From Rummeliibacillus pycnus (lineage in GTDB: Bacteria > Bacillota > Bacilli > Bacillales_A > Planococcaceae): 64,000 nucleotides of DNA. The stretch is taken from positions 124,001 through 188,000 of the forward strand of contig NZ_KZ614145.1 in NCBI RefSeq assembly GCF_002884495.1. The letters are read 5' to 3'. The notes below the pieces were generated by a model. The model saw nothing but the letters and a program-made list of their open reading frames with translations. It searched no databases and was not told the DNA's origin. The position numbers were made by a program, and so were the translations under genes. Below, piece by piece: positions 2,345 through 44,810 of this stretch. The number at the start of each line of letters is the position of its first letter. Position 1 is the stretch's first letter.

Positions 2345-3925
2345 ATGAAACGAGAGGATTTAATTGCACCTGAAAATTACAATTTAGTAGAAGAAATTGA
2401 AAGATTTGCAGAAAATCCAGAAAAACTAGCTATTCTTTTTGAAAATGATCTTGGCAGCAAAGAGACTATAACATATGATGGTTTAATAAGAAGAGCTAAT
2501 CAAGTAGCAAATGTATTTGTAAATCATGGTTTACAAAAAGGGGATGTGGTACTAATAATGGTGCCACGATTAATCGATGCCTATATTACATATGTAGCGG
2601 CATTAAAAGCAGGTTTAGTTGTAATTCCAAGTTCTGAAATGTTAAGAGCAAAGGAAATTGACTATCGAATAGTGCATAGTAATGCTAAAGCAGTTATTGC
2701 ATACGAACCATTTATTGACCAATTTGATCAAGTGCAGCATCTAAAGAATATCCAACAATACGTGATTGGCCAAGCACATGAGCCTTGGATTCCAATGATT
2801 CAAGAGGCTGAAAAAGAGTCAGAAAAGTTTGAAAACGTGAAAACCAAAAGAGAAGATATGGCGTTTTTATCTTATACAAGTGGTACGACAGGTAATCCAA
2901 AAGGCGTTGTTCATACACACGGTTGGGCATATGCTCATTTAAAAACGGCAGCAGCCCATTGGTTAGGAATTAACGAAGGCGATGTTGTTTGGGCTACTGC
3001 GAGTCCAGGGTGGCAAAAATGGATTTGGAGTCCATTCTTATCGGTATTAGGTAGCGGGGCAACTGGATTTGTCTATAACGGAAGATTCAATGCAGATAAG
3101 TATTTATCATTGCTTGAACAATACAAAATCCAAGTACTTTGTTGTACACCAACTGAATACCGCGTAATGGCAAAAGTTGACCATTTAGCAAATTATGATT
3201 TATCAGCTTTGCATAGTGCAGTATCAGCTGGTGAACCTTTAAACCAAGAAGTTATTAACATTTTTAAACGAGTATTTGATCTTCATGTTAGAGATGGTTA
3301 TGGCCAAACAGAAAATACGCTACTTATTGGTAATTTAAAAGATGTTCCTACAAAACAAGGTGCAATGGGAAAACCTACGCCGGGTAATGTTGTAGAGGTA
3401 ATTGATGAAGATGGGCAACCATGTCCAGTAGGTGTAGTTGGAGATATTGCCGTACACCGTTCAACACCAGCGTTATTTAAAGAGTATCTTAATGATCCTG
3501 AGCGTACTGCGAGACAATTCCGTGGAGATTATTATGTAACGGGAGATCGTGCAAGAAAAGACGAAGACGGTTACTTCTTCTTTGAAGGACGTAGTGATGA
3601 TATAATTATTAGTTCGGGATATACAATTGGGCCATTTGAAGTGGAAGATGCCCTTGTAAAACATCCAGAAGTTCAAGAATGTGCGGTGATCGCAAGTCCA
3701 CATGAAGTTAGAGGTAGTATTGTAAAAGCATTCATCGTATTAAAAAATCCATCAAAGGCATCTGATGAGTTAGTAAAGGAATTACAAGAGCATACTAAGA
3801 ATCTAACGGCACCTTATAAATATCCACGTGCAATTGAATTTGTGGAAGAATTACCAAAAACAACATCTGGTAAAATCCGAAGAATTGAATTACGTGAACA
3901 AGAAAAAAATAAACAACATATTTAA
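2345..3925 (+). CDS. mbcS: Acyl-CoA synthetase (MbcS/YtcI-like, ANL superfamily)
   Basis: AMP-forming ligase that activates a carboxylic acid to its acyl-CoA through an acyl-adenylate. The 526-residue protein has the P-loop motif YTSGTTGNPKGVVHTHG near residue 175, a YGQTE motif, the hinge region TGDRARKDEDGY and the C-terminal lysine motif TTSGKIRRIEL. The start at 2345 follows AAGGGGGA. The position beside thiI and sspA matches B. subtilis ytcI (mbcS), described for branched or medium-chain acids. The substrate here is inferred from that synteny. It is a single gene ending in its own terminator. Confidence 0.88.
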   Translation: MKREDLIAPENYNLVEEIERFAENPEKLAILFENDLGSKETITYDGLIRRANQVANVFVNHGLQKGDVVLIMVPRLIDAYITYVAALKAGLVVIPSSEMLRAKEIDYRIVHSNAKAVIAYEPFIDQFDQVQHLKNIQQYVIGQAHEPWIPMIQEAEKESEKFENVKTKREDMAFLSYTSGTTGNPKGVVHTHGWAYAHLKTAAAHWLGINEGDVVWATASPGWQKWIWSPFLSVLGSGATGFVYNGRFNADKYLSLLEQYKIQVLCCTPTEYRVMAKVDHLANYDLSALHSAVSAGEPLNQEVINIFKRVFDLHVRDGYGQTENTLLIGNLKDVPTKQGAMGKPTPGNVVEVIDEDGQPCPVGVVGDIAVHRSTPALFKEYLNDPERTARQFRGDYYVTGDRARKDEDGYFFFEGRSDDIIISSGYTIGPFEVEDALVKHPEVQECAVIASPHEVRGSIVKAFIVLKNPSKASDELVKELQEHTKNLTAPYKYPRAIEFVEELPKTTSGKIRRIELREQEKNKQHI

Positions 3926-3932
3926 AAAAGTT

Positions 3933-3965
3933 AAGAACCACCAGCTGATGGTGGTTCTTTTTTTA
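3933..3965 (+). terminator. Rho-independent terminator after mbcS
   Basis: AAGAACCACC / GGTGGTTCTT stem with a 7-nt loop, followed by a run of T. Confidence 0.9.
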
Positions 3966-4044
3966 GTTTAGTGACATTTACTTTCTTATGTTAAAAAATT
4001 ATAATGATTAAATCGGTTATTAAAGTAAATGAGGTGAATATACT

Positions 4045-4956
4045 TTGCATAATGAAAAAAAGGGCATTTTAGCATCTATAGGAGCATATTTGTTATGGGG
4101 ACTCTTTCCACTCTATTGGAAAGTGATTCAACACGTATCGAGTGAAGAAATATTGGCTAGTCGGGTAATTTGGTCATTTGTTTTAACGTTAATCTTTGTA
4201 TTACTTTTAAAACAAGGTAAAACATTGATAGTAGATTTTAAAGAATTATGGCGTCATCAAAAAGCCTTTTGGTCATTATTTTTTGCAGCTTATTTAGTTT
4301 CGTTAAATTGGTTTATCTACATATGGGCAGTGAATCATGATCATATAGTCCAAACAAGTTTAGGGTATTATATGAACCCAATTATATCTATACTATTAGG
4401 AATTATTTTCTTGAAAGAAAAATTATCTAAATCACAAATTGTAGCATTTTTACTTGCTGCAATTGGTGTTGCAATTCTATGTGTATCTTATGGAGAGATT
4501 CCATGGGTTGCAATTGGTTTAGCATTAAGTTTTGGGATTTATGGATTATTAAAAAAACAAATCGTATTAGATGCAACCAGAGGATTGGTAATTGAAACGA
4601 TGTTTATTTTACCGGTCGCTTTAATTTATAATATGTATCTTTATTTCCAGGGAAATATGTCGTTTCTCCATGTCGATATGACGACTAATTTGTTTTTAAT
4701 TGGAACAGGTATCGTAACAGCAATTCCACTTATTTTATTTGCTACTGGTGCTCAAAATATTCCATTGTATTTGGTTGGCTTTATCCAATATATTTCTCCA
4801 ACAATGACACTTATTTTAGGGGTTATTGTTTATCATGAATCTTTCGGTGGAACAGAGTTCGTTTCGTTTTCGTTCATTTGGTTGGCTTTAGTAATTTTCT
4901 CCATATCAACTATTGCTGGAGTAAGAAAGTCACATCGAATTCATCAAAAAGCATGA
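4045..4956 (+). CDS. rarD: RarD-type permease (EamA drug/metabolite transporter superfamily)
   Basis: 303-residue integral membrane protein with about ten hydrophobic segments arranged as two EamA repeats. The N-terminus (GILASIGAYLLWGLFPLYWK) is characteristic of RarD. The family is named after a chloramphenicol-sensitivity locus, but its substrate is not settled. Translation begins at TTG 4045, supported by GAGGTGA 8 nt upstream. It lies between mbcS and sppA and appears to have its own transcript. Confidence 0.85.
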   Translation: MHNEKKGILASIGAYLLWGLFPLYWKVIQHVSSEEILASRVIWSFVLTLIFVLLLKQGKTLIVDFKELWRHQKAFWSLFFAAYLVSLNWFIYIWAVNHDHIVQTSLGYYMNPIISILLGIIFLKEKLSKSQIVAFLLAAIGVAILCVSYGEIPWVAIGLALSFGIYGLLKKQIVLDATRGLVIETMFILPVALIYNMYLYFQGNMSFLHVDMTTNLFLIGTGIVTAIPLILFATGAQNIPLYLVGFIQYISPTMTLILGVIVYHESFGGTEFVSFSFIWLALVIFSISTIAGVRKSHRIHQKA

Positions 4957-29959: not shown

Positions 29960-30021
29960 ATTTCAACTTAAAGCAAGTAGATTTGAGATGGGGGTTTCAA
30001 ATCAGCTGCGGAGGCATAAAA

Positions 30022-30741
30022 ATGACAAACAAAATATTAGTAGTAGAAGATGAAATATCGATTGCAACCTTATTACAATATAATCTAAAACAAGCTGGCT
30101 ATGAAGTTGTTACAGCAAACGATGGACGTGCCGGTTTAGATCAAGCTATTTCTGAAAAACCGGATTTAATCTTGTTAGATTTAATGTTACCGAAATTGGA
30201 TGGCATGGAAGTTTGTAAAGAATTACGTATGAAGAAAATCAACACGCCTATAATTATGCTTACAGCAAAAGATGATGAATTTGATAAAGTGCTAGGACTT
30301 GAATTAGGTGCAGATGATTATATGACAAAACCATTTAGTCCAAGAGAAGTAATGGCACGTGTAAAAGCAGTATTGAGACGTTCAAAAGTTATCGATCAAC
30401 CTCAGGATGAAAATGAACAAGCTATGGGTGAAAAATCATATCATATAGGCCATCTAAACGTTTATCCTGATCGTTTTGAAGCGTTCTTGGATGACCGATT
30501 ACTAGAATTTACACCTAAAGAGTTTGAATTACTGTTGTATCTTTTAGAAAATAAAAATCGGGTGTTAACACGCGATCAATTATTAAGTGCTGTGTGGCAT
30601 TATGACTTTGCGGGTGATACGCGTATAGTAGATGTGCATATTAGTCATTTGCGTGATCAAATTGAAGAGAATAGCCGAAAACCAAAATTTATTAAAACAA
30701 TTCGAGGATTAGGCTACAAATTTGAGGAGCCAAAAAATTGA
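30022..30741 (+). CDS. phoP: Phosphate-response regulator PhoP
   Basis: OmpR-type response regulator of the phosphate starvation system. 239 residues from ATG 30022 (GCGGAGGC upstream): receiver domain with phospho-acceptor D53 in LLLDLMLPKLDG, and a winged-helix output domain (about 135-235). It overlaps phoR by 4 nt, and the mdh-phoP-phoR order matches B. subtilis. A PhoP box is visible downstream at 32794. Confidence 0.95.
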   Translation: MTNKILVVEDEISIATLLQYNLKQAGYEVVTANDGRAGLDQAISEKPDLILLDLMLPKLDGMEVCKELRMKKINTPIIMLTAKDDEFDKVLGLELGADDYMTKPFSPREVMARVKAVLRRSKVIDQPQDENEQAMGEKSYHIGHLNVYPDRFEAFLDDRLLEFTPKEFELLLYLLENKNRVLTRDQLLSAVWHYDFAGDTRIVDVHISHLRDQIEENSRKPKFIKTIRGLGYKFEEPKN

Positions 30742-32276
30742 TACAGTCATTACGTTTACGTTTATTGTTTGCTTTTGGATTGTTATATATCATCACTTTA
30801 GCTGGCCTCGGCTTTACATTAGGTCAGCTATTTCCACTTCTAGTGAAAGACTCAATCAGAACAAATGTTATCAAATCAAGAGAAAATGTCACACATGCTA
30901 TAGAAAAAGGACAAATAGATTTAACAAACTCACAAAAAAATTCAATCCTTGATGCGATTACTTATCATACAAAGATTCAAGATATATCGGATATTCGCCT
31001 ACAGCTATGGATCTTACTGGCTATAATTTTTGTGATTACTTTTATTATCTTAATAGTAATCACATATCGACTTATCAAAAACCTATCTCAGCCGATTGAT
31101 AATGTTATGATGACTGCTCATGAACTTTCAAAAGGAAATTATCTTGCTAGGGCATATGAAGTAACTGGATCGCCAACATTACAATTGAGCAAGGCAGTGA
31201 ATGGACTTGCAAGAAATTTGCAAGATATCATGATTGTTCGTGAAATTGAACAAGAACGCTTGAAGACATTAATTGAAAATATGGGAAGCGCTCTTATTAT
31301 GATCGGTAGAGAAGGAGATATTACGATTGTCAATCGAGTTTTTACCGAGTTATTTGATCAACAATACGAAGATGTACAAAGCCAACTTTTCCGTGAATTA
31401 GGGTTACCTCATGAATTAGAAGAATTTGTAGATTATGTCTTTAGAACAGAAGTACCATATAGAAAACAAATTCACATTAAAATTCAACATGAATACCGTG
31501 ATATGGAAGTATATGGTGCACCTGTAGTTGGAGAGCATGGCTTGTGGCTTGGCGTTGTGATTGTGATGCATGACATTACAGAATTAAAAATGTTAGAACA
31601 AATAAGAAAAGATTTTGTCGCAAATGTATCTCATGAACTTCGAACACCGATTACATCTATAAAAGGTTTTTCGGAAACACTTTTAGATGGTGCATATAAG
31701 GAAGAAGAAACGCTTCTAAGCTTTTTAGAAATCATAAATAAAGAAAGTAATCGATTACAAATATTGGTGAATGATCTACTCGATTTATCGAAAATTGAAA
31801 AGACGGGCTTTACTGTTAATATGGAAAAAACAAGTTTACGTGATGTGATTATACGAACAATTGAAATGACGCATCAAAAGATAGAAGAAAAACATATGCG
31901 GTTTGAAGCGAAAATTGATGAAGAAGTTTATATTTATGGTGATCCCAATCGCTTAGTGCAAGTGGTGATGAATTTAATGGTCAATGCGATTAACTATTCA
32001 CCAGAAAGAACGAAAATTACGGTTCATCTTTTTGAAAAAGATCAAAATGCCATTCTTGAGATTTCTGATGAAGGAATTGGGATAAGTAAAGAAGAAATTC
32101 CACGAGTATTTGAACGATTTTATCGTATAGATAAAGCACGAAGTCGAAATTCTGGTGGAACGGGATTAGGGTTAGCAATCGTAAAACACCTAGTTGAAGC
32201 GCATCATGGGAAAATACAAGTGGATAGTGTTGTTGGAAAAGGAACAACAATGCGTCTCATTTTTCCAAAAATTTAA
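30738..32276 (+). CDS. phoR: Phosphate-sensing histidine kinase PhoR
   Basis: 512-residue membrane kinase, shorter than B. subtilis PhoR (579). Order: transmembrane helix (about 8-30), a short outside segment of about 55-60 residues, second helix (about 88-110), HAMP, PAS (about 170-280), HisKA with phospho-acceptor H299 in VSHELRTPITS, and HATPase (N-box NLMVNAINYS, then GTGLGLAIVK). The outside segment is too small for the extracytoplasmic PAS-like domain of B. subtilis PhoR. Start TTG 30738 follows GAGGAGCC and overlaps phoP. Confidence 0.93.
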   Translation: MIQSLRLRLLFAFGLLYIITLAGLGFTLGQLFPLLVKDSIRTNVIKSRENVTHAIEKGQIDLTNSQKNSILDAITYHTKIQDISDIRLQLWILLAIIFVITFIILIVITYRLIKNLSQPIDNVMMTAHELSKGNYLARAYEVTGSPTLQLSKAVNGLARNLQDIMIVREIEQERLKTLIENMGSALIMIGREGDITIVNRVFTELFDQQYEDVQSQLFRELGLPHELEEFVDYVFRTEVPYRKQIHIKIQHEYRDMEVYGAPVVGEHGLWLGVVIVMHDITELKMLEQIRKDFVANVSHELRTPITSIKGFSETLLDGAYKEEETLLSFLEIINKESNRLQILVNDLLDLSKIEKTGFTVNMEKTSLRDVIIRTIEMTHQKIEEKHMRFEAKIDEEVYIYGDPNRLVQVVMNLMVNAINYSPERTKITVHLFEKDQNAILEISDEGIGISKEEIPRVFERFYRIDKARSRNSGGTGLGLAIVKHLVEAHHGKIQVDSVVGKGTTMRLIFPKI

Positions 32277-32384: not shown

Positions 32385-32414
32385 CAAAAAACGGGGAATT
32401 CCTCGTTTTTTGTA
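32385..32414 (+). terminator. Rho-independent terminator after phoR
   Basis: AAAAAACGGGG / CCTCGTTTTTT stem with an AATT loop and T-run. Confidence 0.85.
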
Positions 32415-32418
32415 TTTA

Positions 32419-32745
32419 CTTAAATCAATTTCATAATTCAAAGATACGCTATATCTATTTGAACGTTGTCTAAGAAGCGAAAGATGGCGAGTCCTCGAAA
32501 ATGCATTCGCATTTTCTTTGTGCGGTGGTAATTCAAGGAAGCTTATTCAATGTCCTGCGGGAAAGCGAGACAGGTGAGATCCCGCAGGTAGCATCAGCGA
32601 ACGAGGAGGCTCACCGCTCGCTTAGCACGAAAGCACCATCTGGAGTGGCATATTAAGAAAAACTATATATAAAGTATAATCCGAATTATGGTTTGTACAT
32701 TTATAAATCATTCGTTTTTTTTAACTGGAAAAGCATTTATGAAAT
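32419..32745. repeat. Dispersed repeat family B, copy 1
   Basis: About 325 bp, alignable over most of its length with 58691-58994. The core carries GTCTAAGAAGCG..GATGGCG at the left and ACCATCTGGAGTGGCATATTAAG at the right (compare CGCCATC in copy 2), with inner blocks such as CCCGCAGGTAGC and GAGGAGGCTCACCGCTCGC. Copy 1 has an extra A/T-rich insertion around 32497-32550. No open frame of interest. Confidence 0.75.
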
Positions 32746-32793
32746 GGACTCCCTTAAAGGAAAAATAAGAAAAAGATAGCTATGTTTATTGAC

Positions 32794-32847
32794 TTTACAA
32801 TATCTTTACAATGTCTTTATATAAACCAAAAATAGCAGCTTTATACT
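32794..32847 (+). promoter_or_regulatory. PhoP box and promoter of a candidate small RNA
   Basis: Three hexamers at exact 11-bp spacing, TTTACA (32794), TTTACA (32805) and TTTATA (32816), match the Bacillus PhoP box (TT-rich hexamer repeats separated by 5 bp). TATACT (32842-32847) is a good -10, placing the box at about -35 to -60, the position of activated Pho promoters. Confidence 0.6.
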
Positions 32848-32850
32848 AAT

Positions 32851-32916
32851 AGTTGAAGCCCCCTTCAAATTCTTTCTAAAAAGAGAGTCGCAGTTTCATA
32901 GCGCTCTCTTTTTATT
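32851..32916 (+). ncRNA. Candidate PhoP-activated small RNA (about 65 nt)
   Basis: From the predicted start near 32851-32854 the transcript has a 5' hairpin TTGAAG-CCCC-CTTCAA, an A/U-rich linker, then a terminator hairpin. No start codon with a binding site lies in it. The C-only loop resembles the C-rich, Shine-Dalgarno-targeting loops of Firmicute small RNAs such as RsaE/RoxS, but there is no sequence homology claim. Expression is inferred only from the PhoP box, -10 and terminator. Confidence 0.4.
32878..32916 (+). terminator. Rho-independent terminator of the candidate small RNA
   Basis: AAAAAGAGAG / CTCTCTTTTT with an inner CGC/GCG pair, followed by TATTTTATT. No gene lies upstream within 600 bp. 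The rest to polA (32917-33080) shows only a weak possible -10 (TAAAAT, 32985). Confidence 0.8.
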
Positions 32917-33080
32917 TTATTATAAAACCGAACGTTTTTTCGTATATTGAACAGCACTCTTTTCCTTTCCGCTAATAAGCATGTTAAAATAGAGAATGAG
33001 AAATAGCTAATGAAATCTCTATAATATGCAGAAAATGAATATAAAGAATAAGCGATTTAACTATTTAGGAGTGTGCCTAT

Positions 33081-35708
33081 ATGACAAAGGAAAAGTTACT
33101 TTTATTAGATGGTAATAGTTTGGCGTATCGAGCGTTTTTTGCGTTACCATTATTAACAAATGACCATGGTATCCATACGAATGCAGTATATGGATTTACA
33201 ACGATGTTGCAAAAAATAGTAGAAGAAGAAAAGCCAACCAAAATGCTTGTAGCATTCGATGCTGGTAAAACAACATTTCGACATAAAACCTATTCAGAAT
33301 ATAAAGGTGGTAGACAAAAGACCCCTCCTGAATTATCGGAGCAATTTCCATATTTGCGAAAACTGCTAGATGCATATCAAATTAAACAATACGAGTTAGA
33401 AATGTACGAAGCAGATGATATTATTGGCACATTGAGTAAACAAGCAGATGAACAAGGCCTTGAAGTAATTATTGTTTCAGGTGATAAGGACTTAACGCAA
33501 TTAGCATCTACTAATACAACAGTTTATATTACTCGAAAAGGTATGACAGATATTGAACACTATACACCGGAGCATATAGGAGAAAAATATGGCCTAATGC
33601 CACATCAAATTATTGACATGAAAGGCTTAATGGGCGATTCATCTGATAATATTCCTGGTGTTCCAGGTGTTGGTGAAAAAACTGCGATCAAACTACTTAC
33701 CCAATTTCCAACTGTTGAAGAAGTGTATGAACATATTGATGAAGTAAGTGGAGCAAAGCTAAAAGAAAAACTTGTGAATAACGAAGCGCAAGCGAAAATG
33801 AGTAAACAACTTGCGACAATTAACCGTGAAGCACCTATTGAAATAACAATTGATGAATTACATTACGAGGGACCAGATGTTGATAAGTTATTTGGTTTAT
33901 GGCAAGATCTTTCATTCAAATCTTTAATTGAAAAAAGCAGTTATAAAGCAGAAGCTAAAGAAACAACCGCATTAAAATTTGAAATTGTGAACGATCTAAC
34001 AGAAGAACAATTGACAAGCCCAATGGCTATGCATTTAGAGTTAGCAGATGAACATTATCATACTTGCGAAAAATTTGGAATTGCGCTAACTGCAGGCGAA
34101 ATAGCTTATTATATTCCATTTGAAAATGCTTTAAAATCCAAAGAATTTATCGCATGGCTTGAAGACGAGACAAAAAGAAAGTACTTATTTGATTCAAAAG
34201 CAACACAAGCAGCATTATTAAGAAGTGGAATCAAACTAAATGGTGTTGATTTTGACTTTTTATTAGCAGCATATATTCTTAATCCTGCAATGTCATCTGA
34301 TGATGTAGCAGCCGTTGCAAAGGAATTTGGTTACTCAGATGTTCAATCAAATGATGTTGTATATGGTAAGGGCGCAAAAAAAGCCATTCCAGAACAAAAG
34401 GTTATTGCAGAGCATGCAGGACGCAAGGCAACTGCTGTTTTTAGTCTTCAACCAAAACTTGAACAACGTTTAAACGAAAACGAGCAATATGATTTATATC
34501 GTAATCTAGAATTGCCACTTGCTACGATTCTTAGTCAAATGGAGAGCCAAGGTGTATCTGTTGATCGTCATCGATTAGTTGAAATGGGAGCTGAATTAAC
34601 AGCTAAATTGAAAGATATCGAGGAAGATATTTATGAAGTTGCAGGAGAAAAATTTAATATTAATTCGCCTAAACAATTAGGTGTTATTTTATTTGAAAAA
34701 TTAGGATTACCTGTTATTAAAAAAACAAAGACAGGTTATTCAACAGCTGCTGATGTACTAGAAAAATTAGCCCCAGAGCATGAAATTATTCAGCATATTT
34801 TACAATACCGTCAATTAGGAAAGTTACAGTCGACTTATATTGAGGGGCTTTTAAAAGTCATTCATCAGGATGATCAAAAAATTCATACTCGTTATCAACA
34901 AGCATTAACTTCAACAGGTCGTCTAAGTTCAACAGATCCTAACCTTCAAAACATTCCAGTGAGATTAGAAGAGGGGCGTAAAATCCGCCAAGCATTTGTG
35001 CCTTCTCATGAAGGTTGGAAAATGTTCGCTGCCGATTATTCTCAAATTGAATTACGGGTACTTGCACATATGTCAAATGATGAAAATCTAATTAACGCTT
35101 TTAAACATGGTATGGATATTCATATGAAAACAGCTATGGATGTTTTCCATGTAGAGGCAGAAGATGTCACTTCAAATATGAGACGGGCAGCAAAAGCAGT
35201 TAACTTTGGAATTGTTTATGGTATTAGTGATTATGGTTTATCTCAAAACTTGAATATTACGCGAAAAGAAGCGGCTGATTTTATCGAACGTTATTTCAAA
35301 AGCTTCCCTGGTGTTCAAGAATATATGAAGAATATTGTGGAAGAAGCGAAGAAAAAAGGGTATGTGACAACAATTTTGAACCGTCGACGTTATCTACCTG
35401 ATTTAAATAGTTCGAACTTTAATTTGCGTAGTTTCGCAGAACGCACTGCGATGAATACCCCAATTCAAGGTAGCGCAGCAGATATTATCAAAAAAGCTAT
35501 GATTGATATGGCAAAAGCATTAAAAGAACATCATTTACAAGCAAAAATGTTATTACAAGTACATGATGAATTAATCTTTGAAGCACCAGAGGAAGAAATT
35601 GCAACATTAGAAAAACTGGTACCAGAAGTGATGGCTAACTGTATACAACTAAAAGTACCATTAAAAGCAGATTTCGCATCAGGTGCTACTTGGTATGAAA
35701 CGAAATAA
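33081..35708 (+). CDS. polA: DNA polymerase I
   Basis: Repair and Okazaki-fragment polymerase, 875 residues. The N-terminal 5'-3' exonuclease (about 1-290) carries LLDGNSLAYRAFFA and the GDSSDNIPGVPGVG motif. The central 3'-5' exonuclease-like domain is inactive as in other Bacillus enzymes: the DxE motif is replaced by HLELAD. The polymerase domain has DYSQIELRVLAH, RRAAKAVNFGIVYG and QVHDELIFE. It heads the polA-mutM-coaE operon (16-nt gap to mutM). Confidence 0.97.
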   Translation: MTKEKLLLLDGNSLAYRAFFALPLLTNDHGIHTNAVYGFTTMLQKIVEEEKPTKMLVAFDAGKTTFRHKTYSEYKGGRQKTPPELSEQFPYLRKLLDAYQIKQYELEMYEADDIIGTLSKQADEQGLEVIIVSGDKDLTQLASTNTTVYITRKGMTDIEHYTPEHIGEKYGLMPHQIIDMKGLMGDSSDNIPGVPGVGEKTAIKLLTQFPTVEEVYEHIDEVSGAKLKEKLVNNEAQAKMSKQLATINREAPIEITIDELHYEGPDVDKLFGLWQDLSFKSLIEKSSYKAEAKETTALKFEIVNDLTEEQLTSPMAMHLELADEHYHTCEKFGIALTAGEIAYYIPFENALKSKEFIAWLEDETKRKYLFDSKATQAALLRSGIKLNGVDFDFLLAAYILNPAMSSDDVAAVAKEFGYSDVQSNDVVYGKGAKKAIPEQKVIAEHAGRKATAVFSLQPKLEQRLNENEQYDLYRNLELPLATILSQMESQGVSVDRHRLVEMGAELTAKLKDIEEDIYEVAGEKFNINSPKQLGVILFEKLGLPVIKKTKTGYSTAADVLEKLAPEHEIIQHILQYRQLGKLQSTYIEGLLKVIHQDDQKIHTRYQQALTSTGRLSSTDPNLQNIPVRLEEGRKIRQAFVPSHEGWKMFAADYSQIELRVLAHMSNDENLINAFKHGMDIHMKTAMDVFHVEAEDVTSNMRRAAKAVNFGIVYGISDYGLSQNLNITRKEAADFIERYFKSFPGVQEYMKNIVEEAKKKGYVTTILNRRRYLPDLNSSNFNLRSFAERTAMNTPIQGSAADIIKKAMIDMAKALKEHHLQAKMLLQVHDELIFEAPEEEIATLEKLVPEVMANCIQLKVPLKADFASGATWYETK

Positions 35709-41841: not shown

Positions 41842-41904
41842 GACGTAAATTGATACTTGATTTTTAAAAGTATTCAGTATATAATTTCAGTCATAATCTA
41901 AATT

Positions 41905-42160
41905 GAAATGCTTAGAAAAGGACAACAATTTTCTGCACGACTCAAAGAGAGGGAAGCCTTGGCTGAAAGCTTCTTAGTAACGGCACAAAATTTACCGCCT
42001 TGGAGCAGCGACAGTGAATGAAAAGTAATTGTCGACGGTTGCGGCCCGTTAGCCGATCTAGAGCTTCATCTATGTAATGCTTTTTAGCTTACTTAGAAGG
42101 AAGAAGGGTGGAACCACGAGTATAATCTCGTCCCTTTGTGGACGGGATTTTTTTTATGCA
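41905..42160 (+). promoter_or_regulatory. T-box riboswitch leader of thrS
   Basis: The T-box core AGGGTGGAACCACG (42105-42118) is preceded by a stem I region with AAGAGAGGGAAGCC and followed by a terminator, ATCTCGTCC..GGACGGGAT with a T8 run (42125-42158). Uncharged tRNA-Thr should stabilise the antiterminator and allow thrS transcription. I did not assign the specifier codon with certainty. Confidence 0.92.
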
Positions 42161-44632: not shown

Positions 44633-44810
44633 GAAGTGGAATTAGCGAAGACTCCTGTGGGAAAACGGACTAGACGAGACCCCGCAGGAAGCGATTAAGG
44701 AACAGAGTCTAAGAACGCCACGTCCTGTGGCAAGGACTCCGTGACCAACATCCTGTTGCCCTGAGGAAGCTCGTCAGTTCGCCCACGGAAAGCGATGCTA
44801 AATCCACTTC
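44633..44810. repeat. 178-bp palindrome-ended repeat containing module D
   Basis: Ends are inverted: GAAGTGGAATTAGC (44633) and GCTAAATCCACTTC (to 44810), 13 of 14 complementary. Inside are CTCCTGTGGGAAA, GAGACCCCGCAGGAAGCG and GCCCACGGAAAGCG, shared with repeat family B, and module D (44707-44777). No coding potential. Confidence 0.75.

Follow-up and report, generated by a model that had tools for sequence, protein, structure and literature searches.

A putative PhoP-activated small RNA with a C-rich loop, encoded at phoR, is predicted to block the pstC and pstB ribosome-binding sites within the pst operon

What is encoded between phoR and polA in Rummeliibacillus, where a Pho-type promoter is followed shortly by a terminator, and which mRNAs might the product of this locus act on? 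The window analysed here, that is, the whole stretch of 64 kb under study, belongs to a genome of the genus Rummeliibacillus (G000) that consists of one contig of 3.85 Mb, and the start of its PolA is nearest, among the named loci, to those of Rummeliibacillus sp. POC4 (95%) and R. suwonensis (94%). The best 25 NCBIfam matches of the first open reading frame of the locus are OmpR/PhoB-type regulators, each below its cut-off, and the name PhoP is taken from the operon context; the kinase encoded next to it reaches 456.2 bits with the NCBIfam model PnpS (cut-off 400). The features of the locus are the following:

29983..30741, + strand: phoP response regulator, listed open reading frame with an ATG start at 30022
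30738..32276, + strand: phoR, PnpS/PhoR-type histidine kinase, open reading frame
32385..32412, + strand: terminator 3' of phoR, distinct from that of the small RNA (terminator scan)
32455..32665, no strand given: dispersed repeat of 211 bp between phoR and the small RNA gene (matches within the same genome)
32794..32821, + strand: Pho-type box, hexamers TTTACA/TTTACA/TTTATA at 11-bp spacing (read directly; consensus of 65 copies)
32827..32832, + strand: fourth 11-bp repeat, degenerate here (CAAAAA), TT.A.A in most relatives
32842..32847, + strand: -10 hexamer TATACT (read directly)
32853..32868, + strand: 5' hairpin TTGAAG-CCCC-CTTCAA with a C-only loop, the predicted pairing head
32854..32921, + strand: predicted small RNA of about 65–70 nt (start from the -10 hexamer, end from the T tract)
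32877..32921, + strand: intrinsic terminator, stem 32877–32914 followed by TTTTATT (from the fold)
33081..35708, + strand: polA, the next gene downstream (open reading frame list; protein-family search)

The unit begins 517 bp past the end of phoR, and in between lies the dispersed repeat, which has 43 matches in this genome, itself included. As the original prediction had stated, direct reading gave three hexamers after phoR at a spacing of exactly 11 bp (TTTACA at 32794–32799, TTTACA at 32805–32810 and TTTATA at 32816–32821), and the TATACT -10 region, the TTGAAG-CCCC-CTTCAA hairpin and a terminator reached without an intervening gene were likewise recovered from the sequence, the open reading frame list and the fold; the start of the transcript, originally placed at about 32851, was moved to about 32854 on the basis of the -10 position. 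The arrangement is that of a PhoP-type promoter, with TT.A.A-type hexamers every 11 bp upstream of the -10 region, three of them in the window. No open reading frame of at least 80 aa was found in the phoR–polA interval and none of at least 20 aa on the + strand of 32790–32930, and at the level of sequence the locus has all parts of an independent unit: a promoter, a short RNA, an intrinsic terminator and no open reading frame. The triple-hexamer pattern occurs once in the 64 kb (mean of 0.16 in shuffles), and because 15 of 100 shuffled windows carry at least one, the box on its own is only moderately unusual. The predicted RNA of 68 nt folds at -20.6 kcal/mol (z -6.0), which none of 200 shuffles equalled. 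The terminator at 32877–32921 was absent from the list of the consensus terminator scanner, since its bulged stem and 9-nt loop fall outside the rule of that program. Neither of the two gathering-level Rfam matches in the window lies at the unit, and the four sub-threshold matches within 32700–33000 are all far below cut-off, so that at the gathering cut-off the RNA belongs to neither RoxS/RsaE nor FsrA nor any other Rfam family. A second, weak DNA match in the same genome (L002) was rejected, being A+T-rich and having no C-hairpin. Elsewhere in the window, a T-box leader (RF00230, 106.7 bits) is present at 41904–42138 and a Bacillaceae-1 RNA (RF01690, 68.6 bits) at 44693–44759 within a GC-rich stretch, both on the + strand.

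A conservation search around phoR in related genomes, which had been proposed as a check, showed that the unit is kept at phoR over many families. Covariance model R1 (alignment A2), built from six sequences and running from the box to the hairpin with the terminator excluded, gave 35 matches up to an E-value of 10 over 76 sources, one per source and all on the polA strand; 41 of the 76 sources, L. sphaericus/fusiformis-type loci among them, gave no match. In 32 of the 35 matches, the distance between the upstream long open reading frame and the start of the box was -4 to +45 nt, the exceptions being the window (517), R. suwonensis (132) and L018, where the upstream frame was not measurable. 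The expectation that box, hairpin and terminator are kept in close relatives held for R. suwonensis and Rummeliibacillus sp. POC4 and failed for R. stabekisii, whose locus lacks the unit; in Kurthia senegalensis (L014) the head of the small RNA has decayed. PhoR was found in all 151 genomes of the family and R1 matches at E <= 1 in 129 of them, the weak ones including other Pho promoters. When the R1 and PhoR places, 150 of each as listed, were matched up (R1 on the phoR strand and up to 1.5 kb 3' of the gene), at least 71 of the 151 genomes had a match 3' of phoR on its strand (at least 70 within 521 nt and one at 1232 nt), with a median distance of 15 nt among the matches listed; the best 23 R1 matches were all located 3' of phoR on the same strand, and at least 13 of 19 genera have the unit at phoR, one of them solely through the 1232-nt case. 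A second model, R2, built from Metabacillus, Anoxybacillus and Jeotgalibacillus, was run over 398 genomes of the class and gave matches at E <= 0.05 in 44 genomes. Among the 30 loci read, all 20 with E <= 3.3e-4 follow a PhoR C-terminus, as do the weaker loci L153 and L154, one (L152) lies about 1.2 kb from phoR, and seven (L147–L151, L155 and L156) lie elsewhere, some of them plainly other Pho-box promoters such as that of pstS. Two Alkalicoccobacillus loci (L058, 3751–3900, and L062, 3742–3900) keep the Pho box and have a different head (GAACGGT...) and a terminator loop that contains CCCCC.

For the anatomy 65 copies were analysed, and for the heads the 64 distinct ones; the copy counts leave out R1 matches from the Alkalihalobacillus side that keep the box and have a different head (L057, L058, L059 and L062), L154, repeats of named loci and Pho-box promoters such as L103 and L107. 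In the 65 copies the repeats at positions 1, 12, 23 and 34 read TT(A/T)ACA, TTTACA, TTTATA and TT.A.A, most copies carrying all four, and TATAAT is matched at 5 or 6 of 6 positions in 39 of the 65 (best placement in a 14-nt stretch). The box and the C-run sit in the models, so that their conservation among matches is partly built in; the terminator is part of neither R1 nor R2, and one of -11 kcal/mol or below occurs within about 140 nt of the start in 60 of the 65 copies vs 6 of 325 shuffles. A run of at least four C near the 5' end, as in CRR-type small RNA families, is present in 64 of 64 distinct copies, partly by construction of the model, and in 38 of them the predicted fold of the first 34 nt places it in a hairpin loop. 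Several types of head can be distinguished: type I (GAAG-CCCC-CTTC) in Rummeliibacillus, Viridibacillus and Kurthia, type II (GAAAC-CCCn-GTTTC) in Ureibacillus, some Lysinibacillus and genus g14, type III (GAAAACCCCTTCATCCAAGGAGCCAAT) in families of the Bacillaceae side, and type IIIb in genus g32, which we take from its PolA start to be Bacillus-like, where the 5' arm is missing from the RNA and pstC has no G-run. In Bacillaceae-type RNAs an internal AAGG is able to pair with part of the C-run. The hairpin arms of different head types were not aligned by MAFFT, and changes of arm pairs were therefore counted in 36 of the 64 heads, arranged by hand in a table that is biased towards the structure: in this table the loop-closing pair is G-C in 14, A-U in 14 and A.C in 8 heads, and the second pair is A-U in 33, U-A in 2 and U.U in 1. 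The terminator loop reads GACCCCG in L052, L133, L134, L136, L137 and L142, from several families, and may be a second C-rich pairing site.

To which mRNAs are these heads complementary? The complement of the type III core (TTGGATGAAGGGG), searched with one mismatch in 6 genomes, occurred at 54 places, of which 30 loci were read, and it matched the start region of pstB in one genome. The pst operon was picked through this pstB match, pstC having played no part in the choice; the pst operons were then inspected around PstB in 28 genomes that carry the RNA. In the 25 genomes with pstSCAB, 30 nt of each RNA were compared with the start regions of the same genome (-35 to +15, pstC start codons placed by eye) against 200 dinucleotide shuffles each. 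In line with the original proposal that the RNA targets Shine-Dalgarno sequences, the heads of these relatives are complementary to the pstC ribosome-binding-site region in 15 of 25 genomes at p <= 0.045, and pairing at p <= 0.01 is predicted for pstC in 12 of 25 and for pstB in 8 of 25, numbers that do not count independent events since the genomes are related. The signal at pstC is strongest for type III, with p <= 0.01 in 10 of 12 genomes (0.015 and 0.045 in the others), followed by type I with 2 of 5 (0.015, 0.060 in Kurthia G046 and 0.50 in Kurthia G088 in the others), where two Viridibacillus and one Rummeliibacillus pair at pstC through other sequences; it was found in 0 of 5 genomes of type IIIb and 0 of 3 of type II, though the RNA is retained there. 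At pstB, type III reached p <= 0.01 in 6 of 12, type I in 2 of 5, type IIIb in 0 of 5 and type II in 0 of 3 genomes, the lowest value above the threshold being 0.020 (G034). Within the operon the complementarity is restricted to these two genes: at p <= 0.01 it was found for pstS in 0 of 25 genomes (lowest 0.090) and for pstA in 0 of 24 (lowest 0.025), and a perfect complement of at least 9 nt is present at pstC in 11 of 25, at pstB in 8 of 25, at pstS in 0 of 25 and at pstA in 0 of 24, the one at pstC of G240 being located upstream of the ribosome-binding site. For type III, the complement at pstC differs from that at pstS and pstA together with a Mann-Whitney p of 9e-7. The sequences that pair differ by lineage, among them AAGGGGTTTTCAC at pstC of G200 (13 nt), ATTTGAAGGGGG at pstC of G001 (12 nt) and AGGGGGCTTC at pstB of G008 and G043 (10 nt). 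G008 also has a site of 9 nt at pstC, and G478 has sites of 12 nt at pstC and 11 nt at pstB. C-runs pair with G-rich ribosome-binding sites generally, a concern that the pstS and pstA controls and the shuffles answer in part; AGGGGG occurs at many pstS starts, as does GGGAGG at many starts of pstA, and because these starts are G-rich too, a G-rich ribosome-binding site alone is not a sufficient explanation. Swapping the RNA types changed the energies at pstC modestly (III x III -25.3, III x I -18.8, I x I -20.1, I x III -18.7 and IIIb x III -22.1).

On the evidence of the sequences, we consider it likely that the unit encodes a trans-acting, PhoP-activated C-loop small RNA that blocks the ribosome-binding sites of pstC and pstB inside the pst operon. 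Phosphorylated PhoP would bind the 11-bp repeats and drive a short transcript ending at its own terminator, and the RNA would start with a hairpin or an open stretch presenting CCCC(C). This C-rich head would pair with the pstC ribosome-binding site in the pstSCAB mRNA, whose own synthesis is turned on by the Pho response; in one third of the genomes compared, the pstB ribosome-binding site would be paired as well. Translation of pstC and pstB would be blocked and that of pstS would not, keeping the amounts of the membrane and ATPase subunits below that of the phosphate-binding protein PstS; since we infer the same activator for the RNA and the pst operon, the circuit would be an incoherent feed-forward loop that sets subunit ratios. 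Should the paired part be cleaved, the pstS mRNA could be shielded by a hairpin in the pstS–pstC interval, at -15 kcal/mol or below in 24 of 25 genomes and at -7 or below in 25 of 25, and this hairpin could then be the trimmed 3' end of pstS. The count at -7 kcal/mol was rejected as a specific signal, such a hairpin being present before pstA in 18 of 24 as well.

In 3 of the 28 genomes, that of the window (G000), R. suwonensis (G003) and G344, only pstB was found, with no adjoining pstS, pstC or pstA; each has one PstB at E <= 1e-80, the absence of the other genes having been read beside pstB. These three genomes keep the small RNA despite the missing genes, so that the copy in the window is an unusual one, with the RNA kept and its conserved target missing beside pstB. 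A Pho-type box, judged by eye, persists upstream of the lone pstB in G000; the loci with a lone pstB are L421 (about 3760–4443) in G000 and L422 and L403 in the other two genomes. If functional, the RNA therefore needs another target in the genome of the window, and Shine-Dalgarno targeting there rests on the relatives and on one candidate site, at gpsA. The gene encodes glycerol-3-phosphate dehydrogenase, the entry to phospholipid and teichoic-acid synthesis. In G000, where gpsA was chosen through a pattern, the site reaches -29.9 kcal/mol with paired stretches of 10 and 7 bp on either side of a single bulge and a further 7 bp, and 0 of 107 pooled control start regions are as good, which makes gpsA the best candidate target in this genome.

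That the RNA is PhoP-activated and acts mainly on other mRNAs (gpsA, dgk, transporters), the pst match being one of many, is a serious possibility that we nevertheless find rather doubtful. It is favoured by gpsA being the strongest site seen in the genome of the window and ranking 0, 3, 5 and 7 of 107 in four of the six genomes of genus g14, which is of type II (G091, G149, G049 and G100), by the persistence of the RNA in genomes without a pstC site, and by GAAGGGGG at dgk in G000 and three Kurthia genomes. As a general target, however, gpsA had to be rejected, since most of the 38 genomes ranked have no site there (ranks of 99 in G001, 36 in G072, 85 in G034 and 105–106 in the Bacillus-like G214, G300 and G368). 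The examined start sites with GAAGGGGG (60 of 195 places in the other 13 genomes) or TGAAGGGG (80 of 314 places in eight Bacillaceae-side genomes) cluster at dgk, transporter ATPases and a few housekeeping genes and at no gene with a clear link to phosphate, and the 118 proteins from the examined pattern matches included no other conserved phosphate-related gene, which also argues against a main role elsewhere. The excess of GAAGGGGG before ATG in the own genome (18 vs 5 in the reversed control) was set aside as ordinary enrichment at ribosome-binding sites. In G000 and three Kurthia genomes, the start of a deoxynucleoside-kinase-like gene, named by eye, reads GAAGGGGGAYTTCTGATG (L124, L167, L178 and L180), a G-loop hairpin that mirrors the C-loop hairpin of the small RNA.

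It is improbable that the unit is no separate gene and belongs to phoPR as a stabilising element or 3' untranslated region. The phoR stop and the start of the box are no more than about 20 nt apart in most relatives, and for this reason the terminator of the unit probably ends phoPR transcripts there too; such an element would, however, have no use for a conserved promoter made up of PhoP-type repeats and a -10 region, and in the window, where phoPR has its own terminator at 32385–32412, the unit is still intact 517 bp away. A leader or attenuator of polA is more improbable still, and we do not think that polA is a target: it is the next gene in the window, but a terminator and about 160 bp stand between the two, the inspected Ureibacillus and Lysinibacillus loci with the unit have another open reading frame before polA, and the units of Metabacillus and Jeotgalibacillus lie 2.2–2.3 kb upstream of polA. 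A chance look-alike or a mere DNA-level operator, to which the only mildly unusual box might have pointed, is scarcely credible beside the terminators and matching target sites, and chance is refuted by the conservation of the unit at one position across many families. Those parts of the original interpretation that can be computed are supported by the sequence comparisons.

How does the predicted phoR RNA relate to known systems? In B. subtilis, the PHO box is characterised by its exact hexamer and its placing at -60 to -22. Allenby et al. 2004 reportedly found PstS of B. subtilis to be in excess through differential mRNA processing after transcription from one promoter, and we know of no RNA regulator named in that work; an excess of PstS is likewise predicted here, and the five Bacillus-like genomes of our set are without the pstC site. 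PHO boxes have repeat units of 11 nt, in B. subtilis as elsewhere (PMC4415409, in excerpt). FsrA and RoxS use C-rich regions against mRNAs, ribosome-binding sites included (excerpts of PMC8216469 and PMC8464778), and the available text of PMC8216469 counts three small RNAs with C-rich regions in B. subtilis and ties FsrA to Fur, RoxS to oxidative stress and CsfG to sigma-F/G. The phoR RNA resembles these in having a C-rich region aimed at mRNAs, and differs from them in its location at phoR, its Pho-type box and the lack of an Rfam match. IsrR of Staphylococcus is an iron-sparing RNA predicted to target mRNAs (PMC9410917, in part), like the phoR RNA a nutrient-starvation RNA with predicted mRNA targets; the nutrient is iron in the one case and phosphate in the other, where the predicted targets lie in an operon taken to share its activator. 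Pairing at an internal gene start within one operon has a precedent in Spot 42 of E. coli, which pairs at the galK start and causes discoordinate operon expression (portions of PMC8577784), whereas the phoR RNA is from another phylum, would act on two internal genes, pstC and pstB, and would have an activator in common with them. A link to phosphate stress is shared with S1326, an RNA detected after such stress that has a sigma-B promoter and is antisense to cwlO (PMC8464778, in excerpt), and which, unlike the phoR RNA, is neither PhoP-controlled nor located at phoR. The literature searched, as far as the excerpts of it go, names no phoR-adjacent or PhoP-controlled small RNA for these bacteria, and supplementary tables or the 2012 expression atlas may list the segment without a function. 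The phoR RNA would thus work like known C-rich RNAs, and its family, place and regulator appear to be new.

A wider reading, which we put forward tentatively as somewhat short of probable, is that of a PhoP-controlled RNA family, encoded at the 3' end of phoR and dating back to the ancestor of much of Bacillales, as the dedicated cause of unequal expression within the pst operon: it would silence pstC and pstB and spare pstS, the RNA and its sites would change together from one lineage to the next, and upon loss of the pst operon or decay of the sites the RNA would be turned to other targets such as gpsA. Few bacterial responses have been studied as thoroughly as the Pho response, and a phoR RNA that matches two pst genes offers a testable answer to the question of how PstS could exceed PstCAB. 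It would add a phosphate counterpart to the C-rich RNAs of iron and redox control, and suggests that the phosphate alarm may use the phoR RNA to fine-tune the amount of each part of the transporter.
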